DNA of 37,566 bases from Candidatus Blastococcus massiliensis AP3. GTDB taxonomy: Bacteria; Actinomycetota; Actinomycetes; Mycobacteriales; Geodermatophilaceae. The position numbers and the translations under genes are program-made. Within the stretch, counting starts at the first letter, position 1, and every line of letters starts with the position of its first letter. The stretch is taken from contig NZ_HG931175.1 in the NCBI RefSeq assembly GCF_000582785.1, forward strand, positions 394,985 through 432,550, read 5' to 3'. The notes beneath the pieces are model-generated. The model did not search any database. It saw nothing but the letters and a program-made list of their open reading frames with translations, and was not told where the DNA came from. Shown here one piece after another: positions 2,012-18,472 of the stretch.

Positions 2012-2983
2012 CTAGGGCGTGAGCACCAGCCGGATGCCGGGGTCGCCGGTGGCCTGGCGGTGCCAGGCGGCGGCGACGTCGGCCAGCGGCACCTCCTCGT
2101 GCGCGACGGCCAGCCGGCCGGCGGCCGCGTGCCCGGCGACCGTGGTCAGTGCGTTCCGGCGCTGCGCGGGGGTCAGCGCGTTGTTCGTGTAGCCCAGCAC
2201 CGAGGCCGACCGGGACCGCAGGGCGGCCGAGGAGAACTCCGCGGTGTCGCCGGACGCGCCGCCCAGGTTCACCAGCCGCCCGCCGTCGGAGAGCACCTGG
2301 GCGGCCGCCGTCGCCGCGACGCCGAACACCGGGTCGACGACGAGGTCCAGCCGGCCGCCGAGCGCCTCGCGGAACCGGTCGGCCAGCGTCGCGGTGTCCT
2401 GGTCGAGCGCCACCACCTCGTCGGCGCCGGCGGCCAGCGCCCGGTCCCGCGCGGCCCGCGACCGCGCGGCCGCGACCACCCGTCCGGCACCGAGCACCCG
2501 GGCCGCGCCCACGGCGACCTGGCCGACGGCCCCGCCGGCGCCGAGCACGAGCACGTGCTCCCCCGCCTGCAGCCCGCCCCGCCAGGTCAGCGACATCCAG
2601 GCCGCCACCGCGGACAGGCCCAGGGCCGCCAGCGCGGGGTCGGCGAGCTCGGCGTCGACCGGCACGAGGTCGTCGGGGGCGACGATGCAGCGCTCGGCCA
2701 GGCTGCCGTCACCCGGGGCCATCCCCGCGCTGGTGGCGAACCAGACCCGCGTCCCGGGAGCCAGGTGCGGGGAGTTCTCGACCAGCCCGACCCCCTGCAC
2801 CCCGGGCACGTACGGGACAGCGGGCCGGCCGAAGTAGGAGGTCCCCGAGGCGCACAGCAGGTCCAGCGGCACCAGCGGGGCGGCGGTCACCCGGACCGCG
2901 GTCGATCCGGCGACGGGTGCCGGGTCCGGGTGCTCGGCCAGCTCGGGGACCTCTCCCGGGGTGGTCACGACGGCGGCGCGCAT
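2012..2983 (-). CDS. Zinc-independent MDR-family oxidoreductase (quinone reductase-like)
   Basis: 323 residues with the medium-chain dehydrogenase/reductase layout: an N-terminal GroES-like domain (about 1-120) and a central Rossmann domain beginning at a glycine-rich LGAGGAVGQVAV segment. The catalytic-zinc Cys/His set of alcohol dehydrogenases is not evident, so a NAD(P)H-dependent quinone or enone reductase is more likely than a true alcohol dehydrogenase. It starts 11 nt after the lyase-like gene and precedes the dioxygenase by 74 nt, so it is probably in the same operon. In the pathway it could reduce a ring-cleavage product such as maleylacetate or an enoyl intermediate; that role is inference from position only. 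Confidence 0.8.
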   Translation of the reverse strand: MRAAVVTTPGEVPELAEHPDPAPVAGSTAVRVTAAPLVPLDLLCASGTSYFGRPAVPYVPGVQGVGLVENSPHLAPGTRVWFATSAGMAPGDGSLAERCIVAPDDLVPVDAELADPALAALGLSAVAAWMSLTWRGGLQAGEHVLVLGAGGAVGQVAVGAARVLGAGRVVAAARSRAARDRALAAGADEVVALDQDTATLADRFREALGGRLDLVVDPVFGVAATAAAQVLSDGGRLVNLGGASGDTAEFSSAALRSRSASVLGYTNNALTPAQRRNALTTVAGHAAAGRLAVAHEEVPLADVAAAWHRQATGDPGIRLVLTP

Positions 2984-2994
2984 CCCCGGCGTCC

Positions 2995-3843
2995 TCAGGC
3001 TCCGGAGCCGGCCGGCGGCAGCGACGGCGGCACGTAGGGGTCGGGGTCGACCGGCCGGTTGTTGAGGTCCACCGACAGGAAGACGTCGTTCGCGACAGGC
3101 CGGCGCAGCTCCTCGGCCAGCTGGCCGATCAGGCCGGCGGTACGGGCCAGCAGCGCGAAGCCGCGGAGCAGCTCGCGCGGCAGGCCGAGGTCGGCCAGGG
3201 CCGCGCCGCAGACACCGGCGCCGTTGAGCGGCAGCCGCTTGCCCAGGACCTGCTCGTGCACCCGGCCGATCGCCGAGAACAGCGCCAGGTGCGGGCCGAC
3301 CAGCCCCTCCTCGGTGGCGATCTCGATCAGCCGGGGGGTGCGCGGGTCGCCCTGCTTGTGCACGTGGTGCCCGAGGCCGGGCACGAACCGGCCGGCCGCC
3401 CGCTGGGCGGTCACCGTCTCCAGCGCGAGGGCGTCCCAGCCCGTGTCGTCGGTGGGCAGGGCACCGTCCACACCGGTGAGGACGTCGTGCAGGAACCGGC
3501 CGCAGTCCTCGGTCACCCCGAGGAAGCGCGAACCACCGCCGAGCAGGCCGGCGGCCAGCGCGCCCTGGATGGAGTCCGGCGCCGACAGGTAGGTCAGCCG
3601 GGTCACGATCGCCGTCGGCGTGAAGCCGTGGTCGGCCAGCGCGGCCAGCACCGCCTCGAAGACCCGGGTCTCGCCGGGGCTCGGGCGGCGCTGGGTGGCC
3701 AGCCAGAACGAGAGCTCGCCGAAGCCGACGCTGCCCATGACGTCCCGGGCGAGGTCGCTGCCGAGCAGCGTGATCGAGTCCAGGCTCGAGGCACCGAGCG
3801 CCGTCGCGTACTCCGCGGTCGGGCGATGGGGTCGGTCGCTCAC
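2995..3843 (-). CDS. Citrate synthase / citryl-CoA lyase superfamily protein with altered active site
   Basis: 282 residues, the size of stand-alone citryl-CoA lyase domains. Two expected catalytic histidines are visible: H72 in LADHGFTPT and H159 in GLGHHVHKQGDPR. The segment that normally carries the catalytic Asp (LNVDG in ATP-citrate lyase) reads LNGAG, placing Ala209 at that position. The family cleaves or forms 3-hydroxy-3-carboxyacyl-CoA thioesters. The GTG start at 3843 overlaps the TGA of the CoA-transferase (GTGA), so the two are coupled, suggesting the transferase makes the CoA thioester that this protein acts on. The missing Asp means a changed mechanism, altered substrate or non-catalytic role is possible. 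Confidence 0.8.
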   Translation of the reverse strand: MSDRPHRPTAEYATALGASSLDSITLLGSDLARDVMGSVGFGELSFWLATQRRPSPGETRVFEAVLAALADHGFTPTAIVTRLTYLSAPDSIQGALAAGLLGGGSRFLGVTEDCGRFLHDVLTGVDGALPTDDTGWDALALETVTAQRAAGRFVPGLGHHVHKQGDPRTPRLIEIATEEGLVGPHLALFSAIGRVHEQVLGKRLPLNGAGVCGAALADLGLPRELLRGFALLARTAGLIGQLAEELRRPVANDVFLSVDLNNRPVDPDPYVPPSLPPAGSGA

Positions 3844-9233: not shown

Positions 9234-9547
9234 GGGCCCACCCTGGCCCCGGGCGACCCGCGCGGCAAGGGCCCCTGCGGCGCCCTCTGCCCCTGCTCAT
9301 GCGCCTGCGCGTTGCCTCGCGGGCAGCCACACAACGGTCTCTCGTACGGCGGCTCGGTTCTGCCGGACACCAGCGCACGTCGCACCGGGGTCCCCCGGGA
9401 ACTCCGGCGGCCGGCGGCGCGTCCCCCGGTGGGCCGCTCGAGGACACGTGCCGGTGAGACCGCGCGACATCGACGGGCCGAGGACATGCGCTGGGCGGCG
9501 ACGGCGGAGGGGGTGCAAGCCCCTTCTCGCAGACCTCTGCCGGAGCG
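9234..9547. other. Intergenic region of 314 bp
   Basis: It lies upstream of the methyltransferase and downstream of the lipoprotein gene, both on the minus strand. Apart from a short GC hairpin near 9508-9524 I see nothing: no convincing small gene, RNA or repeat. Short open frames here are arginine/proline-rich antisense-type sequence with no start signal. Confidence 0.5.
9508..9524 (-). terminator. Weak GC hairpin downstream of the lipoprotein gene
   Basis: A 5-bp stem (AGGGG/CCCCT) with a 7-nt loop, 24 nt beyond the stop of the minus-strand lipoprotein gene. There is no U tract, so it is a low-confidence terminator. Confidence 0.3.
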
Positions 9548-10405
9548 TCAGTCGACTCGGACGAGGATCGCGTGGGCCCGCACCAGGCCCTCGGGGTCGA
9601 TGGCCGCGATCCCCTGGACGATCTCGTCGTCGACGACCGGCACCCACACCTCGACCACTCCCCGGATGCCATCGGCGCTGATGGTGAGTGCGGAGCCCGG
9701 AAGTGCGTCGCGCACGGCTGCCTGCAGCATCTGGAGCTTCGCGGCCGTCTGCGGTGCCGCCACCACGCAGATAGGCCCGCCGTAGCGCTGCCGGAGTTGT
9801 GCTTCGTGCCGGTCGAGATCGCCGGTGAAGCTGAACGTCAGCACCCCCGCGTCGACGTCGTCCGGTCCGGCGCCGGTCCACGCGGCATCCTGGTCGAGCC
9901 AGATGGCGCCGAGATCCGGTTGCTCATCGGCATAGGTCGTAGCTGCGCTCCAGGCCTCCGTCGACATCAGGCGCTCGTCGACCGGCGCCCAGCCACCCTC
10001 GGGCGGGTCACAGGGCGTGGAGAAGTCGGAGTCCGGCAATCCGTCCGGCCGGGGCACCGAGTCCGGATCGCCGGGTGGCTCGGTCAGCGTGAACCGGTCC
10101 CCGTCCCACGTGCCGACGAGCCCGTAGTCGCCCCAGATGGTGCCGTTCGCCGACTCCTCGTCGTCCACATCGGCCCACTCGAACCCGACGACGTCCGGGC
10201 CGCCGCACTGCGGTGGCAGTGACTGCTCGACCCCGCCCAGGCACAGCTGCGGCCCGTGGCCCGGAGACTCCAGGACCGTCGTGCTGACGGCGTACCGCTC
10301 GGCTTCCACGGGTTCCGGCGCCGGCGCGCTGCCGGCCGCTTCGGCGCATCCGGCGAGCAGGAGGCCACCGAGGAACAGCGCCGCAGGCCGCCCGGTCCGG
10401 GTCAT
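9548..10405 (-). CDS. Predicted lipoprotein of unknown function
   Basis: 285 residues. The N-terminus has two arginines, a hydrophobic core and the lipobox LAGC with Cys20, so it should be a lipid-anchored cell-surface protein. The mature part is acidic, contains three further Cys, and has a segment GTIWGDYGLVGTWDGDRFT that I recall as recurring in uncharacterised actinobacterial lipoproteins. No enzymatic motif is seen. The ATG at 10405 is chosen over an upstream in-frame start because it gives a proper signal peptide and because TACCGT ends 7 nt before it, suggesting a leaderless mRNA. The function is unknown. Confidence 0.8.
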   Translation of the reverse strand: MTRTGRPAALFLGGLLLAGCAEAAGSAPAPEPVEAERYAVSTTVLESPGHGPQLCLGGVEQSLPPQCGGPDVVGFEWADVDDEESANGTIWGDYGLVGTWDGDRFTLTEPPGDPDSVPRPDGLPDSDFSTPCDPPEGGWAPVDERLMSTEAWSAATTYADEQPDLGAIWLDQDAAWTGAGPDDVDAGVLTFSFTGDLDRHEAQLRQRYGGPICVVAAPQTAAKLQMLQAAVRDALPGSALTISADGIRGVVEVWVPVVDDEIVQGIAAIDPEGLVRAHAILVRVD

Positions 10406-10412
10406 GGCGGCA

Positions 10413-10418
10413 ACGGTA
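10413..10418 (-). promoter_or_regulatory. Candidate -10 box (TACCGT) for the lipoprotein gene, leaderless
   Basis: The minus strand reads TACCGT, 7 nt, then ATG at 10405. This is the same arrangement and hexamer as at the sigma factor gene. Confidence 0.45.
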
Positions 10419-10537
10419 GGGGAGACACCGCCCCCGGAGGCCGTCTGCGGACGACGGGCGCTGGATCGTGATCTCGGGACCATGTCCGGATGCACCTCGG
10501 GCCGCCACGTCCGCGGAGAAGGACCGAGCTCATCCCC

Positions 10538-10789
10538 TCAGGTGCCGCGCTCAGGGTCGGCTGCTGCCGTCCTGCGGGCGCGATCGAGGCGCTGCTCGAA
10601 GGCAGCGCGGTGCTCCCGGTCGCGCCTCCGGGCGTCGCGCCAGGCGATGGTGAGCGAGATGACCGTCGCCACCATGGCAGCGGCCGACCACCAGTTGCCC
10701 ACGACGACGTCGGCGACGAGGAGGGCCCCGGCCGGTACGCCCAGCAGGGCGGCCATCCGGGCTCGCCGGTGCCAGTCGACATCCACCAC
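10538..10789 (-). CDS. Small two-helix membrane protein, unknown
   Basis: About 83 residues from a GTG at 10789 (an adjacent GTG at 10786 is equally possible). Two hydrophobic segments are visible (about residues 12-31 and 34-49), followed by a strongly basic and charged tail (RDARRRDREHRAAFEQRLDR) that may be a short helical extension in the cytoplasm. There is no family assignment. The reading frame is favoured over the overlapping ones because of this membrane-then-charged pattern. It lies between the lipoprotein and prfC, on the opposite strand from prfC. The start is uncertain because no ribosome binding site is seen. Confidence 0.5.
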   Translation of the reverse strand: MVDVDWHRRARMAALLGVPAGALLVADVVVGNWWSAAAMVATVISLTIAWRDARRRDREHRAAFEQRLDRARRTAAADPERGT

Positions 10790-10860
10790 GCCATGATCAT
10801 GCGGCAGGGACGCCGTCGCGCGTGACCGACGACGCAGCCGGGACCGCCGCCGAGCGCGGA

Positions 10861-10866
10861 TACTGT
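10861..10866 (+). promoter_or_regulatory. Candidate -10 box (TACTGT) for the prfC leader transcript
   Basis: TACTGT ends 6 nt before the GTG at 10873, which opens a 17-codon frame. This would start transcription at, or one base from, that GTG. Confidence 0.45.
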
Positions 10867-10872
10867 CGACTC

Positions 10873-10926
10873 GTGCCCACTGCTGATCCCGCCCTGTTCC
10901 GCGCCGCCCGGACGGCGCCGCGATGA
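10873..10926 (+). CDS. Putative 17-residue leader peptide upstream of and overlapping prfC
   Basis: GTG at 10873 opens 17 codons (VPTADPALFRAARTAPR) and ends in TGA at 10924-10926, which overlaps the prfC start codon at 10923 in the arrangement ATGA. A TACTGT box lies 6 nt upstream, so the peptide could be translated from a leaderless mRNA. prfC itself has no visible Shine-Dalgarno sequence, so ribosomes finishing this peptide could re-initiate on prfC. It may be fortuitous; the frame, overlap and promoter box are directly seen, the role is inference. Confidence 0.45.
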   Translation: MPTADPALFRAARTAPR

Positions 10927-12539
10927 GCGCGGTCGACGAGCGGGCCGCCGGCGCGTCGGCGAAGGCGGCCCTCGCCGAGGCCGGGCGCCGCCGCACGTTC
11001 GCCGTCATCAGCCACCCCGATGCCGGCAAGTCCACGCTCACCGAGGCCCTCGCCCTGCACGCCCGGGTCATCGGGCAGGCCGGCGCGGTGCACGGCAAGG
11101 CGGGCCGGCGCGGCACGGTGTCGGACTGGATGGACATCGAGAAGCAGCGCGGCATCTCCATCACCTCGGCCGCGCTGCAGTTCGAGTACCGCGACGCGGT
11201 GGTGAACCTGCTCGACACCCCCGGCCACTCGGACTTCTCCGAGGACACCTACCGCGTGCTGACCGCCGTGGACGCCGCGGTGATGCTCGTCGACGCCGCC
11301 AAGGGCCTCGAGGCGCAGACGATGAAGCTGTTCGCCGTCTGCCGGCACCGCGGCATCCCGGTGCTCACCGTCATCAACAAGTGGGACCGCCCGGGCAAGG
11401 ACGCCCTGGAGCTCATGGACGAGATTCACGAGCGCACCGGCCTGACGCCGACGCCGCTGACCTGGCCGGTGGGCACTGCCGGCGACTTCCGCGGGGTGCT
11501 GGACCGCGCCGACGGCTCCTACCGCCGGTTCACCCGGACGGCCGGCGGTGCGACGATCGCCCCCGAGGAGACGCTGCCGGCCGAGGCCGCCCTGGCCCGC
11601 GAGGGCGACGCCTGGCAGCAGGCGGTGGAGGAGGTCGAGCTCCTGGAGGCCAGCGGCCAGGACCACGAGCAGTCGCTCTTCCTGGACGGCGTGACGACGC
11701 CGGTGCTGTTCGCCTCCGCGGTCTCCAACTTCGGCGTCGGCGCGCTGCTGGACACCCTCGTCGACCTCGCCCCCGCGCCGACCGGCATGCCGACGGCCGA
11801 CGGCGCGGTCCGCGAGCTCACCGATCCGTTCAGCGCGTTCGTGTTCAAGGTGCAGGCCGGCATGGACACCGCCCACCGCGACCGGCTGGCCTTCATCCGG
11901 ATCTGCTCCGGCGTCTTCGAGCGCGGCATGGTCGTGACCCACGCCCGCACCGGCCGCCCCTTCGCGACGAAGTACGCCCAGCACGTGTTCGGCCGCGACC
12001 GGGAGAGCATCGACGTCGCCTACCCCGGCGACGTCGTCGGTCTGGTGAACGCGAACGCGCTCGGCGTCGGCGACACCCTGTACGGCGAGCAGCCGGTGCA
12101 GTTCCCCCCGCTGACCACCTTCGCGCCCGAGCACTTCGCGGTGTGCCGGGGCCGGGACGCCGCCAAGCACAAGCAGTTCCGCAAGGGCATCGCGCAGCTC
12201 GACAGCGAGGGCGTGGTGCAGGTGCTGACGTCCGACCGACGGGGCGACGGGGCGCCGGTCCTCGCTGTCGTCGGGCCCATGCAGTTCGAGGTGGCCACCC
12301 ACCGGATGGAGCACGAGTTCGGCGCTCCGGTCGACCTCGACCGGCTGCCGTACAGCCTCGCGCTGCGCACCGACGAGGCGTCCGCGCCCGGCATCCTCGC
12401 CGCGGCGCGCAACGCCGAGATCCTGCGCCGCGGCGACGGCGAGCTGCTGGCGGTGTTCCCCGACAAGTGGGGGCTGCGGGTGCTCCAGCAGAACAAGCCC
12501 GAGCTGCTGCTCGAGCCACTGGTCGCCGCCCAGCTGTGA
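10923..12539 (+). CDS. prfC: Peptide chain release factor 3 (RF3)
   Basis: 538 residues, the usual RF3 length. This translational GTPase removes RF1/RF2 from the ribosome after peptide release. GTP-binding motifs are clear: G1 HPDAGKST (31-38), switch I with QRGISITS (about 75-82), G3 DTPGHSDF (98-105) and G4 NKWD (152-155). RF3-specific features include KAGRRGTVSDWMDIEKQRG and the C-terminal RRGDGAPVLAVVGPMQFEV segment. The ATG at 10923 gives a normal N-terminus, but no ribosome binding site precedes it; instead it overlaps the stop of a short upstream frame. A phosphoribosyltransferase gene follows after 59 nt. Confidence 0.95.
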   Translation: MSAVDERAAGASAKAALAEAGRRRTFAVISHPDAGKSTLTEALALHARVIGQAGAVHGKAGRRGTVSDWMDIEKQRGISITSAALQFEYRDAVVNLLDTPGHSDFSEDTYRVLTAVDAAVMLVDAAKGLEAQTMKLFAVCRHRGIPVLTVINKWDRPGKDALELMDEIHERTGLTPTPLTWPVGTAGDFRGVLDRADGSYRRFTRTAGGATIAPEETLPAEAALAREGDAWQQAVEEVELLEASGQDHEQSLFLDGVTTPVLFASAVSNFGVGALLDTLVDLAPAPTGMPTADGAVRELTDPFSAFVFKVQAGMDTAHRDRLAFIRICSGVFERGMVVTHARTGRPFATKYAQHVFGRDRESIDVAYPGDVVGLVNANALGVGDTLYGEQPVQFPPLTTFAPEHFAVCRGRDAAKHKQFRKGIAQLDSEGVVQVLTSDRRGDGAPVLAVVGPMQFEVATHRMEHEFGAPVDLDRLPYSLALRTDEASAPGILAAARNAEILRRGDGELLAVFPDKWGLRVLQQNKPELLLEPLVAAQL

Positions 12540-12598: not shown

Positions 12599-13252
12599 AT
12601 GGCCGGCACACCGTTCCGCGACCGCGTCGACGCCGGGCGTGCGCTCGCCGCGCGCCTCGCGGAGCTGGCCGGTCCGGACCTCGTGGTGCTGGGCCTGCCC
12701 CGCGGCGGGGTGGTCGTCGCCGCCGAGGTCGCCCGCGCGCTGGGCGGCGTCCTGGACGTCGTCGTCGTCCGGAAGGTGGGCGTGCCCTGGCAGCCGGAGC
12801 TGGCCATGGGGGCCGTCGCCGCCGTGGGGGACGACGTCGAGACGGTGCGCGACGAGCGCGTCCTGGCCGCGCTGCACGTCGACGACGGCACCTTCGACCG
12901 CGTGCGTGCCCGAGAGCTCGGGGAGCTGCGCCGCCGTGAGGCCGCCTACCAGCAGGGCCGGCCGCCCCCCGCGCTGTCCGGACGGCCGGTCGTGGTGGTC
13001 GACGACGGACTGGCGACCGGTTCGACCATGCGGGCAGCGGTGGCGGCGGTCCGCCGGCAGGCTCCGGCTCGGCTGGTCGTGGCCGTACCCGTGGGCTCCC
13101 CCGCCGCGTGCGCGTCCTTCACCGGAGAGGTCGACGAGGTCGTGTGCCTGTGGGCACCCGGGTCGTTCTCCGCGGTCGGCCGGGGCTACGCGAAGTTCCG
13201 GGCCACGACCGATGACGAGGTCCGGGCAGCGCTCGCCCGGCCGGCGGGGTGA
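12599..13252 (+). CDS. Phosphoribosyltransferase-domain protein
   Basis: 217 residues. The PRPP-binding loop is VVVVDDGLATGSTM (about 131-144, with D135 and D136), and the fold begins with VVLGLPRGGVVVAAEVARAL. This matches the stand-alone PRTase group common in actinobacteria and often found near stress proteins. The particular base or substrate is unknown, and some members may be regulatory or hydrolase-like rather than nucleotide-salvage enzymes. The ATG at 12599 follows GGAGGAGTC. It may be cotranscribed with prfC (59-nt gap), with no obvious functional link. Confidence 0.85.
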   Translation: MAGTPFRDRVDAGRALAARLAELAGPDLVVLGLPRGGVVVAAEVARALGGVLDVVVVRKVGVPWQPELAMGAVAAVGDDVETVRDERVLAALHVDDGTFDRVRARELGELRRREAAYQQGRPPPALSGRPVVVVDDGLATGSTMRAAVAAVRRQAPARLVVAVPVGSPAACASFTGEVDEVVCLWAPGSFSAVGRGYAKFRATTDDEVRAALARPAG

Positions 13253-13262
13253 CCGGCGCGGG

Positions 13263-13670
13263 TCAGCCCAGGGCGTCGATCAGCGCACGGCAGGCCTGCT
13301 CGCAGCGGCGGCACGCCTCGGCGCAGATCCGGCAGTGCTCGTGCATCTCGGCGTGCCGGCCGCACTCGTCGCCGCAGGCCCTGCACGCGGCGGCGCAGGC
13401 CTCGAGCACGGCCCGCGTGAGGTTCGCGTCGTAGCCGGTGTGCCGGGACAGCACCCGGCCGGTGGCCTCGCAGACGTCCGCGCAGTCGAGGTTGGTGCGG
13501 ATGCAGGTCCTCAGCTCGGCCACCATGTCCTCGCTGAGGCACGCGTCGGCGCAGGCGGTGCACGCCTGGGCGCACTCGACGCACGCCTCGATGCACGCGG
13601 TCAGCGCATCCCGGTCGACACCTCCGAGGTCCTTCGGGTAGGTGGCCAGCATCTGGGCTGCGACGGTCAC
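13263..13670 (-). CDS. Cys-rich four-helix-bundle copper-storage-like protein (Csp/DUF326)
   Basis: 135 residues with 18 cysteines, most in CxxxC or CxxC spacing on predicted helices (C26, C30, C33, C37, C40, C44, C56, C63, C67, C92, C96, C99, C103, C113, C116, C120, C123, C127), plus His at 77, 106, 110 and 112. This is the pattern of Csp proteins, which store many Cu(I) ions inside a four-helix bundle. There is no signal peptide, so it resembles cytosolic Csp3 rather than exported Csp1. The GTG at 13670 is supported by GGAGG 5 nt upstream. No copper exporter or CsoR gene is next to it. Copper binding is family knowledge, not shown here. Confidence 0.88.
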   Translation of the reverse strand: MTVAAQMLATYPKDLGGVDRDALTACIEACVECAQACTACADACLSEDMVAELRTCIRTNLDCADVCEATGRVLSRHTGYDANLTRAVLEACAAACRACGDECGRHAEMHEHCRICAEACRRCEQACRALIDALG

Positions 13671-13798: not shown

Positions 13799-14620
13799 TC
13801 AGCCGTCGGACAGGGTCGCGGTGATCCGCGTGATGGTGCTCTCCTCCACCGGCAGGTGCGGCAGGACCGTGGGCAGCTCGTCCGGTTCCAGCCCCGTGTC
13901 GGCCAGGGCCGCGAGCAGCAGGTCGGCCTCGGTCGGCGGCACCGGGACGGTGCAGCCGGACGCCTCGAGCGCCGCGCGGGCCAGGAACAGCGCGCCGGCG
14001 AGGCCGTCGTCGGGCGCGGGCACCTCCGGCACCGGCACGGCGGCGCGGGTGGCGGTCTCGGCCGCACGCACCAGCGAGAGCGGCAACCCCTCGGTCTCCA
14101 CCTCCAGCAGCGGCTGGGCCCCGAGCGCGGCGAGGACGAGGTGCTCGGCGGCGATCCGGAGCGGCGCCTCCCACTCCCCCGCGCGCACGACCGCGGCCAG
14201 GTCGCCGGCGTCCTCACCGACGTCGTCGGCGAGCTCGGCCCACGCCGCCGGGCGGTCGGTGCGGGCGCGCTCGGCCGCCGTCACGCAGGTGGCGTGCACG
14301 AACGGCACGAGCACCTCGTCGTCGAACCGCTCGGCGTGCACCGTCCCGTCGGGGGCCAGGGCGTTGAGCGCGTCCTGGAAGCTCCCCGGCACCGCGTCGC
14401 CGAGGTCGAGCCGGCCGTCGTCGTCGCTGCTCAGGGGCAGCCCGCCGGCTGCCCGCTCCCCCAGCGTCGGCCCGCTGGGCTGCGGCACGCCGGCCCGCAG
14501 CCGCAGGTGCGGTCGGTCGGAGAGCCCCACCGCCCAGGCACAGGCCTCGGCGATCAGCGCCGGGGTCCGCTCGCGCAGGACCTCCCGGGTCAGGAGCCCC
14601 ATCCAGTCGACGTCGAACAC
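13799..14620 (-). CDS. Unknown helical protein coupled to the RNase III-like gene
   Basis: 273 residues from a GTG at 14620 (an ATG at 14602 is an alternative start). I do not recognise the family. The protein is acidic, rich in Ala/Leu/Glu and predicted mostly helical, with no signal peptide, membrane segment or nucleotide-binding motif. Its start lies 31 nt inside the 3' end of the double-RNase III-like gene in another frame, so translation of the two is likely linked, which suggests a shared process or complex. GGAGG is present but only 1 nt before the GTG, so the exact start is uncertain. The function is unknown. Confidence 0.7.
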   Translation of the reverse strand: MFDVDWMGLLTREVLRERTPALIAEACAWAVGLSDRPHLRLRAGVPQPSGPTLGERAAGGLPLSSDDDGRLDLGDAVPGSFQDALNALAPDGTVHAERFDDEVLVPFVHATCVTAAERARTDRPAAWAELADDVGEDAGDLAAVVRAGEWEAPLRIAAEHLVLAALGAQPLLEVETEGLPLSLVRAAETATRAAVPVPEVPAPDDGLAGALFLARAALEASGCTVPVPPTEADLLLAALADTGLEPDELPTVLPHLPVEESTITRITATLSDG

Positions 14621-15435
14621 GCCTCCACTGTCCCCGACGCCGTCGACCCGAGCCCGAGCACACCGGAAGCGGTGGCGACGGCGGCCACGGCACCGTCGCG
14701 CAGCTGTGCCATCCCGACGAGGGCCTGGACGTGGTCGAGGTGATGGCCGGAGGAGGTGGGGCCGCACGGGGGCCGGACGCCGGCCTCGCGCACGAGCCGC
14801 CGTCCGGCGAGCAGCGGGTGCCGCCGGGCGGAGAGCTCCCCCTCGTCGCCCGCGTCGACGGCCACGAGGTGCACGCTGGCCGCCGCCTCCAGGGTGAAGC
14901 TCCCCAGGGTCGCGGCGCGCCGGAAGTCGTCCGACGAGCACGGCGGTTCCGGGCGGTGCGGCGCGCCGCCCCGCAGCAGGCGGTCCCGGTCCCGGGCGAA
15001 CGCCGCGTGGACCAGCGTGGCCGCGGCGGCCAGCGCATCCGCCCACCCGCCGGCCAGCCACGCCGCGGCGACGCAGGCCTCGACGAGGTCGGCCCGGCGA
15101 CGCACGCCGGGCCGCCAGTCGAGCAGGTGCAGCACCCCGGCGTCCTCGACGGAGGCCGCCAGATCGCGGTCGGAGACGAGGCCGGCGTGGCTGCGCCCGG
15201 CGCAGCACTCCCCGCCGTCCTCGACGACGAGCACCCGGTGGTGGGCGGTGACGTGGTCGAGCAGCGAGTCGCCGAGCCACTCGAGTCGCTGGAAACGGTG
15301 CCCGCGGGGGTCGAGGAGCGCGGCGACGTCGGAGCGGCGCAGTGGCGCCGTCGTGCCGAGAGCACGGGCCAGCGCCAGGGCCTCGTCGGGGGACGCGGCC
15401 CGTCGACGGTGCGGCGGCGGCACGGTGGACGGCAC
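14590..15435 (-). CDS. Tandem RNase III-like domain protein (no dsRBD)
   Basis: 281 residues from a GTG at 15435 preceded by GAGGA at 6-7 nt. Domain 1 (about 16-150) contains QRLEWLGDS (49-57), which fits the RNase III signature, then RSHAGLVSDRDLAASVEDAG and ADLVEACVAAAWLAGG (115-130). Aligned with E. coli RNase III, E41, D45, D114 and E117 correspond to E52, D56, D116 and E119; the E38 position is Gln49. Domain 2 (about 168-265) repeats the fold: FRRAATLGSFTLEAA, DEGELSARRHPLL, then HLDHVQALVGMAQLRDG. There the acidic residues are mostly lost (A175, S179, Q237; D234 kept). No dsRNA-binding domain follows. It could act as an intramolecular pseudo-dimer. RNA cleavage is inference; the target is unknown. 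Confidence 0.7.
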   Translation of the reverse strand: MPSTVPPPHRRRAASPDEALALARALGTTAPLRRSDVAALLDPRGHRFQRLEWLGDSLLDHVTAHHRVLVVEDGGECCAGRSHAGLVSDRDLAASVEDAGVLHLLDWRPGVRRRADLVEACVAAAWLAGGWADALAAAATLVHAAFARDRDRLLRGGAPHRPEPPCSSDDFRRAATLGSFTLEAAASVHLVAVDAGDEGELSARRHPLLAGRRLVREAGVRPPCGPTSSGHHLDHVQALVGMAQLRDGAVAAVATASGVLGLGSTASGTVEACSTSTGWGS

Positions 15436-15488
15436 CCCGATTCCTCGGCGTCCGGGACCCTCCGGTGAACGGTTCCGGGCCGCCGTCT

Positions 15489-15577: not shown

Positions 15578-18472
15578 ATGACCCGGGGGATCGCACCCGA
15601 GCACGCGGCAGCCGACACCGACGACGAGGAATCGCGCGCCGAGGCCCTCGAGGCCCCGCCGGAGATCACCGTCGAGGACGTCCGCGTCGACGCCCGGCTC
15701 TTCACCGAGCACGAGGTCCGGCACGTGGCTCGGCGCATCAGCCCGTCCGCCGCCCTGTTCATCGCCGTCGCCGTCCTCGCCGGCGCGACGACCGGGCTCG
15801 TCGTCTGGGCCTTCCCGAGTCAGGCACCGCCGGACTACCACGGCGTCTCCGCCGGCGGGCTGATGGCGCTGGCCGGCATCGTCCCCGCGGTCCTGGCGGC
15901 GGTGGCGACCGGCCGACCGGTCACCCGCCTCGACGGCGGGCAGATCATGCTGCGCGGCCTCAGCCGGTGGGTCGTCGGCTGCTACGCCGTGGCGTGGCTG
16001 GCCGCCTTCCTGGTGCCGCTGTTCAGCCTCGTCACCCCGTGGGGCTGGCTGGGCAGTCCGGCCGGCCTCGGCGCGGGCCTCGGCCTCCTCGTGCTGACGA
16101 CGCTCATGACGCCCGCGCTGTTCATGGTGCTGGCCGGCCGCCTCCACCCGAGGGAGAGCACGCTGCTCGCCGTCGCCCGGGCCAGCCGGCCGGCGCGGCG
16201 CGACCCCTCGCCCGAGGACCTGCGCAGCCGGTGCGCCCTGGTGAAGGACCTCCGGGACCTGGCCCGCAGCGAGTTCCAGTCCGGCGACCGGCGGGCCGTC
16301 CGCTACCGCATGGCCGGGCTCGCCACGATCGCCGCCCGCACGGACGTCCACGACGTCGTCGAGCTGGCCCTGGACGAGCTGGGGCTGGTCTGCCAGGAGG
16401 TGGTCCTCGACCGCGACCTCGCGCGCGAGGGCGTCGCCGTCCTCTCGGAGGCGGCGCGGTCCCTGCCGCCGGCCGAGTTCTCCCTGCACCGCCGCGCCGT
16501 GCACGAGCTCATCCGCGTGTGGAGCGCGGTCGTGCGCGGGGGCAGCTCCGACACGCTCCGGGACGAGACGGTCGACGGCATCGTCGCGATCGCCGGGCTG
16601 CGCGGCGACGAGGAGCTGCCGCTGCTGGCGATGCTCCTGGCGGAGTTCGCCGAGGACGCCGAGGTTCCCCAGGACCGGCTGGCCGCCGCCATGCGGAGCA
16701 TCGAGCGGCGCGTCGACTTCGTCCACCTGCCCACCGGCCCGGCCGCCACCGCCTGGGCGAGGGCGCGCGGCCGCCTCGACCCCGGCGGCTTCACCCTCCT
16801 GCTGGCCCGGTACACCGCCCTCACCGCGTCCGGCCGCGTCACCGACTCGGCGCGGACCATCGCCGAGGCGGCGGCCGCCCTGGCGCTCTCGGACGCCGAG
16901 GAGCACCGGCTGCGCAGCAAGCCCCTCGTCACCGCCGTCGCCGCCGCGGTCGGTTCCGAGCACAGCAAGGCCCTGCTGCGGGCGGCGGTCCTGGCGGTGT
17001 GGATCGGCCACCCGGCGGCCGACGAGGCCCGGGGCGTGCTGCTCGCCGAGACGGTCCGCAACCTGCCGCGGATGGACGCCGACGACCTCGACGACCTGGT
17101 CGACCGCGTCACGCAACTGCCGGACGACCTGCTGCTCGACCGGTGTGCTCCGGCCCTCATCCCGGCGCTGGACGCCGCTGTCGCTCCGCTCCTCAAACCA
17201 CCGGGTGAGGACGACGCCGCGCTGCACGACGCCCGCCAGCGCGCGCTCGTGCTGCTGGTGACCGAGATCCGCACGGCCGCCGTGATGCGCGATCCGCGCC
17301 TGGCCGATCCCCTGGACGGCAGGATCGAGGAGCTCTTCGCCCGCCTCGTGGACGGCGCGCGCACGGGCGCCCTCGTGAGCGAGCCCAGCGAGATCCTGCG
17401 GCGGCGCACCGCGTTCCTCATCCACCGCGTGGAGGCGCTGGACGCCGCGGCCGCGCGCACGGTCGCGGCTCCCGCGGTGCCCCTGCTGCTCACCGCCGGC
17501 GGTGTGTTCGGGCCCGCCTGGTTGCTGTGGTCCCAGGAGGCCGGCAACCGACCGCTGCGGGAGCAGATCCCCCCGGAGTGGGTGGCGGGCATCGTTCCCG
17601 CACTCGTCACCGTGCGCGCCTCCATGGCCGCCGCAGGAGAGGACACCCCGCTGGGACTGCCCACCGCCGACCCCCACACCGTGCACGGATGGACGTGGGG
17701 CGCCGCGGCGGAGACGGCGACCGACGCCCTGCCCGGCCTGCTGTCCCTCCTGCCCGCTCCGGCGCTCGACCAGGCCATGGCCGCGCTGCACCGGTGGGTC
17801 AACCAGGGGCCGCCGGCCGACTCCGGCCAGGACGGCGTCGCGGCCCGCGCCGCGGAGGCGCTCGGCATGCTGCCCGAGGTGGCCGCTGACGACGCCCGCG
17901 CCACCCTGCTGGCCTACCACCGGACCGCGCTGGAGCTCTCCCTGCACGGCCTGTGGTGGCTCCCCGGCACGGTGGCCGAGCCCGACCCCGCCCGGACGAC
18001 GATCGCCGGCGAGATCCTGAGCACCGCGACGCCGCGGCTGCTGCGCGCGAGCCACAACCTGGCGCTCCAGGTGCTCGAGGCGCTCGTGCGCACCTGGTGG
18101 TCGGGGATCACGGCGGGCCACCGGGTGGACCCGGCCGCGCTCGCCGCCGTGCGCAGGGCCGCGCTCGCGCGCCCGCCCGTGCGGAGTTTCGTGGAGGCGA
18201 ACCTCAGGGCTCCCGGCGTGCCCGGCGAGGTGCTGCAGCGGCTGCTCGGCCTCGGCGGTCGGAGCCGGCCCGGGGGCGGCCAGCCGCACGGCGGTCGTGG
18301 TTCCGCCCAGCAGCGCCCGGGAGGCACGACCGCTGGTCGGCGGCGGCAGGACCGCCCGGCGTCCCCCGAGCTGCCGCGCCAGCGACGTCCCCGTCCTGCC
18401 GAGCCCGCGGACGACGGAGGCGCACCTCCGACGCCCGATCCCGGCGGCACCCGTCCGGCGGTCGAGAGCTGA
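15578..18472 (+). CDS. Large membrane protein with helical-repeat cytoplasmic region, unknown
   Basis: 964 residues from an ATG at 15578 with AGGAGGG 6 nt upstream. After about 65 acidic residues there are four hydrophobic segments (roughly 66-88, 98-118, 133-159, 166-190). The remaining ~700 residues are alpha-helical, Ala/Leu/Arg-rich and look like an irregular HEAT/ARM-type solenoid. The last ~60 residues are Pro/Gly/Arg-rich and probably disordered. I recognise no family. Such a layout fits a membrane-anchored scaffold with a large cytosolic binding surface. It is divergent from the RNase III-like gene with a 142-bp shared upstream region, so a functional link is possible but unproven. 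Confidence 0.75.
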   Translation: MTRGIAPEHAAADTDDEESRAEALEAPPEITVEDVRVDARLFTEHEVRHVARRISPSAALFIAVAVLAGATTGLVVWAFPSQAPPDYHGVSAGGLMALAGIVPAVLAAVATGRPVTRLDGGQIMLRGLSRWVVGCYAVAWLAAFLVPLFSLVTPWGWLGSPAGLGAGLGLLVLTTLMTPALFMVLAGRLHPRESTLLAVARASRPARRDPSPEDLRSRCALVKDLRDLARSEFQSGDRRAVRYRMAGLATIAARTDVHDVVELALDELGLVCQEVVLDRDLAREGVAVLSEAARSLPPAEFSLHRRAVHELIRVWSAVVRGGSSDTLRDETVDGIVAIAGLRGDEELPLLAMLLAEFAEDAEVPQDRLAAAMRSIERRVDFVHLPTGPAATAWARARGRLDPGGFTLLLARYTALTASGRVTDSARTIAEAAAALALSDAEEHRLRSKPLVTAVAAAVGSEHSKALLRAAVLAVWIGHPAADEARGVLLAETVRNLPRMDADDLDDLVDRVTQLPDDLLLDRCAPALIPALDAAVAPLLKPPGEDDAALHDARQRALVLLVTEIRTAAVMRDPRLADPLDGRIEELFARLVDGARTGALVSEPSEILRRRTAFLIHRVEALDAAAARTVAAPAVPLLLTAGGVFGPAWLLWSQEAGNRPLREQIPPEWVAGIVPALVTVRASMAAAGEDTPLGLPTADPHTVHGWTWGAAAETATDALPGLLSLLPAPALDQAMAALHRWVNQGPPADSGQDGVAARAAEALGMLPEVAADDARATLLAYHRTALELSLHGLWWLPGTVAEPDPARTTIAGEILSTATPRLLRASHNLALQVLEALVRTWWSGITAGHRVDPAALAAVRRAALARPPVRSFVEANLRAPGVPGEVLQRLLGLGGRSRPGGGQPHGGRGSAQQRPGGTTAGRRRQDRPASPELPRQRRPRPAEPADDGGAPPTPDPGGTRPAVES

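Follow-up and report, generated by a model that had tools for sequence, protein, structure and literature searches.

Bacterial RNase III enzymes are classed with a single RNase III domain, and in the consulted sections of two sources (PMC8708148, PMC5141509) the only single-chain proteins with two such domains are eukaryotic. Likewise, bacteria and archaea are described as having no Dicer ortholog in the consulted part of a third (PMC5303251). Pairing of an active with an inactive RNase III domain is known from KREN1 to KREN3 with KREPB6 to KREPB8, where it may limit cutting to one strand; the sections consulted state that such catalytic/non-catalytic pairing "so far seems to be unique to kinetoplastid RECCs" (PMC9508840). 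Here, we describe a gene in a 37,566-nucleotide stretch of the Candidatus Blastococcus massiliensis AP3 genome (contig NZ_HG931175.1, positions 394,985 to 432,550; the window hereafter) whose 281-amino-acid product holds two RNase III domains and no double-stranded RNA-binding domain (dsRBD). We consider it likely that this protein is an intramolecular RNase III pseudo-dimer in which only the site of domain 1 is complete, domain 2 acts as the partner and binding half, and one strand of duplex RNA would be cut.

Both halves of the window protein are RNase III domains

The gene (14590..15435, minus strand) runs from a GTG start to a TGA stop, as delimited by translation and family matches. Its minus-strand translation contains all motifs quoted in an earlier note on this DNA, namely, QRLEWLGDS at residues 49 to 57, ADLVEACVAAAWLAGG (with D116 and E119), and the second-copy motifs FRRAATLGSF, DEGELSARRHPLL, and LDHVQALVGMAQLRDG; the plus-strand frame over the same stretch does not hold them. 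The codon-position GC contrast climbs at ~15400 to 15460, close to the GTG at 15435, and close homologues begin at most ~10 residues from it. Domain 1 (residues ~16 to 155; 14971..15390, minus strand, as are all features of the protein) is placed by its PF00636 match, hhalign, and the helices of the predicted model, and carries a complete catalytic set. Within it, the signature Q49-RLE52-WLGD56-S57 (15265..15291) was assigned by alignment to canonical RNase III, and the second acidic motif D116-LV-E119 (15079..15090) aligns with D114 and E117 of the Escherichia coli enzyme. Domain 2 (residues ~168 to 265; 14641..14934) has an RNase III fold in prediction with an incomplete catalytic set. According to the alignment, it retains the EGxLSxxR stretch as D197-E198-G-E-L-S202 (14830..14847), with E198 corresponding to E. 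coli E65, and its second acidic motif is degenerate (D234-HV-Q237; 14725..14736), with Q at the E117 place.

The claim of the earlier note that the protein combines two RNase III domains, one of them degenerate, without a dsRBD was confirmed by profile comparisons and residue counts. In the window protein itself, the first half matches PF00636 weakly but in the right place (22.7 bits, under the cut-off of 27) and TIGR02191 with E = 2.3e-4 (20.7 bits versus a cut-off of 166), and no Pfam match (E <= 1) was obtained for domain 2 searched by itself. Across relatives, all 23 sequences of the first alignment, 22 homologues besides the window protein, match PF00636 and PF14622 (E limit, 0.1), and domain 2 of the relative L007, scored alone, reaches 40.9 bits against PF00636 (cut-off, 27). 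We further compared, with hhalign, family domain profiles of 121 rows with 23 canonical actinobacterial RNase III domains (22 from loci plus that of the own rnc). The domain 1 and domain 2 profiles matched canonical RNase III at 98.9% (E 1e-17) and 97.6% (E 4.7e-12), respectively, each E-value applying to one comparison, and matched each other at 97.3%, with two reversed and five column-shuffled controls at <= 0.4%. Chance resemblance to RNase III was rejected because of the 23/23 rows matching PF00636/PF14622, together with these domain profile results. Domain 1 thus has the fold, the signature, and the equivalents of E41/D45/D114/E117 that define the RNase III superfamily, its own PF00636 score lying below the cut-off and those of relatives above it. 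At E <= 0.1, the window protein matched only RNase III families in Pfam, and zinc-finger, PAZ, helicase, and dsRBD families were not matched. PF00636, run against the own genome (E <= 10), hit two places, the canonical rnc (80.6 bits) and the window gene (18.9 bits, under the cut-off), and PF00035 (dsRBD) had a single match, in the canonical rnc (C2:74116-74313); an ordinary RNase III is therefore present alongside the two-domain protein.

Comparisons with known structures point to the same arrangement. A 29-member profile searched against Protein Data Bank sequences placed Drosha on top, with one alignment starting in one RNase III domain of Drosha and ending in the following one. The predicted model of the window protein has a predicted local distance difference test score (pLDDT) of 91.9 and a predicted template modelling score (pTM) of 0.89, and that of a member 33% identical to it has values of 93.9 and 0.92. 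Two RNase III folds packed as an intramolecular dimer had been proposed as the outcome to look for, and each model can be aligned over its full length with individual Dicer and Drosha chains; VIA-align of the window protein model to most of these chains gave 3.0 to 4.4 Å. In these predictions, the two RNase III domains pair within one chain, as in Dicer and Drosha.

A single complete catalytic set is conserved across the family

Homologues were gathered by a first protein search (23 proteins, including the window protein), an alignment search (114 proteins), and a third protein search, represented by the best 120 of 220. Residues were counted in 167 distinct members, i.e., 165 from protein searches and loci after removal of 4 duplicates, plus L056 and L057; this count leaves out the other 100 proteins of the third search and some genome copies (e.g., G061, G863, G864, and G865). 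The four acids of domain 1 singled out in the earlier note, E52, D56, D116, and E119 (E41, D45, D114, and E117 in E. coli RNase III), are indeed retained in homologues, with all four present in 164/167 members. The exceptions are P0018 (D116A) and P0115 and P0116, both without the N-terminal part. By residue, E52 is found in 165/165 and D56 in 166/166 ungapped rows, D116 in 166/167, and E119 in 167/167 members. The place of E38 (Q49 in the window protein) is occupied by Q in 164/165 ungapped rows.

The predicted loss of acids from domain 2 was likewise borne out, the four-acid set being found in 0/167 members, so that the asymmetry between the two halves is uniform across the family. The window protein carries A175, S179, D234, and Q237 at the E41, D45, D114, and E117 places. 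Among the 167 members, the E41 place holds A (118), R (46), E (2), or V (1); the D45 place S (60), N (52), D (37), A (15), T (2), or I (1); the D114 place (residue 234) D (119), S (46), T (1), or R (1); and the E117 place (residue 237) Q (118), E (48), or L (1). Three of the four acids are kept in 2 members, two in 37, one in 126, and none in 2. E41 and E117 are described as binding one catalytic Mg2+ and D45 and E117 as binding the other (PMC9291653), and domain 2 of the window protein accordingly lacks both metal sites. In E. coli RNase III, E117K, E117A, or E117Q keeps dsRNA binding and loses cleavage, as tabulated in Table 1 of PMC8708148, and Q, one of these non-cleaving replacements, occupies that place in most domain 2 copies. 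Other residues of domain 2 are strongly conserved, specifically, E183 (167/167), E198 (167/167), R205 (164/167), and R172 (155/167), which argues against decay of this half. Completion of the domain 1 metal site in trans by E198 of domain 2 was considered and rejected, since E38 and E65 are described as sitting at the ends of the RNA valley, with E38 far from the cleavage site (PMC9291653).

The counts also bear on whether the protein cleaves at all. It could be a non-cleaving RNA-binding or chaperone protein of the RNC1 type, with domain 1 acids kept for folding or metal-dependent binding only, and mitoribosomal mL44 would presumably be a second likeness. Both RNase III domains of RNC1 are described as inactive (PMC8708148), mitoribosome chains are also among the fold matches of both models, and domain 1 has a degenerate EGxLSxxR stretch. 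Against this stand the domain 1 acids, intact in 164/167 members down to ~30% identity to the window protein, and the absence of the full set from every domain 2. Acids kept in one half and lost from the other are the pattern expected from selection for catalysis in that half, and we regard a non-cleaving role as unlikely.

A candidate Cys set (C77, C78, C166, and C224/225) spans both domains of the window protein. At least two Cys at 66 to 87 plus one at 160 to 171 occur in 16/121 rows, 15 of which also have one at 212 to 232 (the miss is P0011); 4 more rows have at least two Cys at 66 to 87 without the other two, and 101/121 are without the set. To judge from these rows, it is possibly a metal or disulfide staple, at most of the branch of the window protein.

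A probable pseudo-dimer with one cleavage centre

The interpretation of the protein as a pseudo-dimer with one cleavage centre, put forward in the earlier note, is supported by homology, predicted fold, and conservation. From these and the sequence itself we infer cutting, its restriction to one strand, the RNA substrate, and the choice of substrate. Specifically, the monomeric chain would form one duplex-binding valley from its two RNase III halves. Domain 1 would hold the sole complete metal site (E52, D56, D116, and E119), and domain 2 would serve as dimer partner and nucleic-acid-binding half through its conserved E183, E198, R205, and R172. With one complete site only, each binding event on what is presumably duplex RNA would end in a single-strand cut by domain 1 rather than in a staggered double cut, and the protein probably nicks one strand of a duplex. 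Since there is no dsRBD, the substrate would be chosen by a partner or by the valley itself.

Several observations weigh against this pseudo-dimer reading. The E65 place of domain 1 is variable (E in 9 and D in 37 of 167 members; E76 in the window protein), and together with the degenerate EGxLSxxR stretch this means that domain 1 activity could be weak. The two members with three of four acids in domain 2 are L056 and L057. Foldseek superposed the model on the same Dicer and Drosha chains at only 6.4 to 10.6 Å, with 6/146 matches at E <= 0.001, and AlphaFold could favour a known dimer arrangement. Finally, the chain could homodimerise, dimerisation being inherent in the build of the RNase III domain, and two associated chains might then cut both strands with their two domain 1 sites, like ordinary RNase III or Mini-III; we judge such a two-cut enzyme to be very improbable.

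Distribution and origin of the family

The gene is patchily spread, as an accessory gene often gained or lost. Homologues occur in the genomes of Geodermatophilus pulveris and Blastococcus sp. TF02A-26, and database names among the others include Frankiales bacterium, Candidatus Nanopelagicales bacterium, and Actinomycetia bacterium; members are labelled "dsRNA-specific ribonuclease," "ribonuclease III domain-containing protein," or "hypothetical protein." In Blastococcus sp. TF02A-26, the gene (L004, L043, and L044) lies in two reading frames, through a frameshift or an assembly fault. Genome counts are lower bounds, because the candidates scored per genome numbered at most 6 (class and phylum), 23 (own family), or 15 (order of G105). 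Strong matches (E 6.3e-37 or better) were found in at least 8/394 genomes of the class; 231 of these 394 pass the 0.001 limit, and almost all of the weaker matches listed cover just profile positions ~10 to 190, like canonical rnc, with one covering 167 to 219. The gene is present in at least 3/112 genomes of the taxonomic family of the window (E <= 1e-10; one copy lies in two frames), at least 1/396 of the phylum sample, namely, the own genome (E <= 1e-14), at least 8/166 of the order of G105 (E <= 1e-15; one in two pieces), and 4/4 of the order of G024 (one copy cut by a contig end).

When searched by tblastn (E <= 1e-3), neither the 50,697 phage records nor the 72,556 plasmid records contained a match to the window protein. 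A phage or plasmid gene is accordingly unsupported, the sole match on a viral contig (L064) being a single-domain RNase III. That contig, of 107 kb, encodes it in a 177-amino-acid frame (2899-3432, plus strand) with no dsRBD match.

In a tree of 20 domain 1, 20 domain 2, and 16 canonical domains, a branch separates each of the three groups from the rest (support, 98/90, 99/89, and 99/99). Domain 1 and domain 2 show the same split of 8 Nanopelagicales-type rows against the remaining 12, with a domain 2 support of only 88/50 for this group. The tree is unrooted, and the software flagged its small number of columns and its long branches; the claim is therefore limited to its being consistent with a two-domain chain that arose once and whose domains were inherited together.

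Gene neighbourhoods

In all four genomes of one genus (L038 to L041), the stop of sbcC and the start of the gene right after it share 4 bp (GTGA in three, ATGA in one), and sbcD lies upstream of sbcC, partially in L041, where the other contig end cuts the RNase III gene. In the two loci tested, L038 and L040, SbcD scores above the TIGR00619 cut-off, and SbcC is the best NCBIfam match, under cut-offs. In two genomes of another genus (L056, ~9266-10612; L057, ~9563-11152), a gene for the single-stranded DNA-binding protein SSB comes next on the same strand (PF00436, checked for L057 alone); the SSB start codon of L057, an ATG at 10616, lies ~100 bases past the stop of the RNase III gene. This suggests a repair-type nucleic-acid context in two branches only. 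The protein might then be a nuclease of DNA or RNA-DNA structures that nicks hairpins or flaps with SbcCD and SSB, and a truncated Caenorhabditis elegans Dicer with one whole RNase III domain is described as acting as a DNase (PMC7144382). However, RNase III enzymes normally require RNA, four plus two genomes are a small sample, and neighbours vary by lineage, the adjacent genes in the window, G. pulveris, L035 to L037, and L058 not being known repair genes. We therefore hold a repair nuclease to be quite unlikely. Also speculative, and in our view unlikely to hold, is a wider proposal in which a minimal Dicer/Drosha-type core was built independently in bacteria as a strand-selective nickase for structured nucleic acids, translationally tied in some lineages to SbcCD and placed beside SSB. 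If true, it would link RNase III to DNA-end or hairpin processing, e.g., the clearing of RNA-DNA structures.

In L035 to L037 and L058, the gene lies between that of a preceding NlpC/P60 protein (Pfam, L035) and an SDR oxidoreductase gene (best NCBIfam match, L036); a photolyase-like gene (tested in L037) is close by. In the window, a divergent upstream gene (15578..18472, plus strand) encodes 964 amino acids with N-terminal membrane segments recognised by eye and no family above cut-off; it is shared with the G. pulveris locus L003 (46% over 848 columns), and nothing else was shared when ten loci were searched by tblastn with three window neighbours. Downstream, a 267-amino-acid protein gene of unassigned family (13799..14602, minus strand) has its ATG 13 bases inside the 3' end of the RNase III gene and is probably co-translated, given this overlap; its product has no Pfam or PADLOC match. 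PADLOC (E <= 0.01) matched none of five proteins, including the window protein and two relatives, and among the neighbours listed none is common to all lineages. An RNAi-like pathway with Argonaute was rejected, as no Piwi match was found in 15 genomes holding the gene (E <= 0.1); 4 of these were <90% complete, and 1/14 control genomes (Methanocaldococcus) matched.

Elsewhere in the window, a Cys-rich 135-amino-acid DUF326 protein (13263-13670, minus strand; PF03860, 51 bits) is encoded, which may resemble four-helix metal-storage proteins. An RF3-like GTPase gene of the peptide chain release factor type (10923-12538, plus strand; PF16658 and PF00009) adjoins a phosphoribosyltransferase-like gene (12599-13251). 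Scans of the window detected no Rfam RNA at gathering score and no tRNA.

Comparison with known RNase III systems

Family members are already in sequence databases, and their two-domain nature was not found described in the literature searched; titles and abstract openings there, which covered few subscription journals, report no bacterial tandem RNase III protein. The family would be a bacterial instance both of tandem RNase III domains and of active/inactive pairing, in ~230 to 300 residues, and suggests that bacteria, too, went from a homodimer to a dimer within one chain. As a compact natural system, it could serve to test if a fixed pseudo-dimer with one RNase III site nicks a single chosen strand, and it could be of use as a dsRNA-nicking reagent.

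Domain 1 shares its fold and catalytic residues with canonical bacterial RNase III (rnc, class I); the canonical enzyme has one RNase III domain and a C-terminal dsRBD, whereas the window family has two RNase III domains. Mini-III (class 4) is likewise a bacterial RNase III domain without a dsRBD, but it is described as a single catalytic domain acting as a homodimer (PMC5141509), whereas the second domain of the window family lies in the same chain. The kinetoplastid KREN/KREPB proteins combine one catalytic with one non-catalytic RNase III domain, as the window family does, a likeness of working rather than of descent. There, the two domains belong to different chains, each bearing a zinc finger and part of a large editing complex, in contrast to one chain that matched no zinc-finger family.

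Chloroplast RNC1 is not known to have a dsRBD. It carries two RNase III domains in one chain (PMC8708148), as in the window family, which is set apart from RNC1, as described, by its intact domain 1 set. With Dicer and Drosha, the shared feature is two RNase III domains that pair in one chain, in the window protein as a prediction and not a solved structure. Dicer and Drosha have two competent sites and make a staggered double cut, unlike a family whose domain 2 never holds all four acids, and their dsRBD, PAZ, helicase, and proline/RS-rich parts have no counterpart in the 281-amino-acid window protein. The family further differs in being bacterial, with one complete site and no Piwi match in the 15 gene-holding genomes scanned. 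It thus stands between RNC1, with both halves inactive, and the Dicer/Drosha core, its closest layouts.
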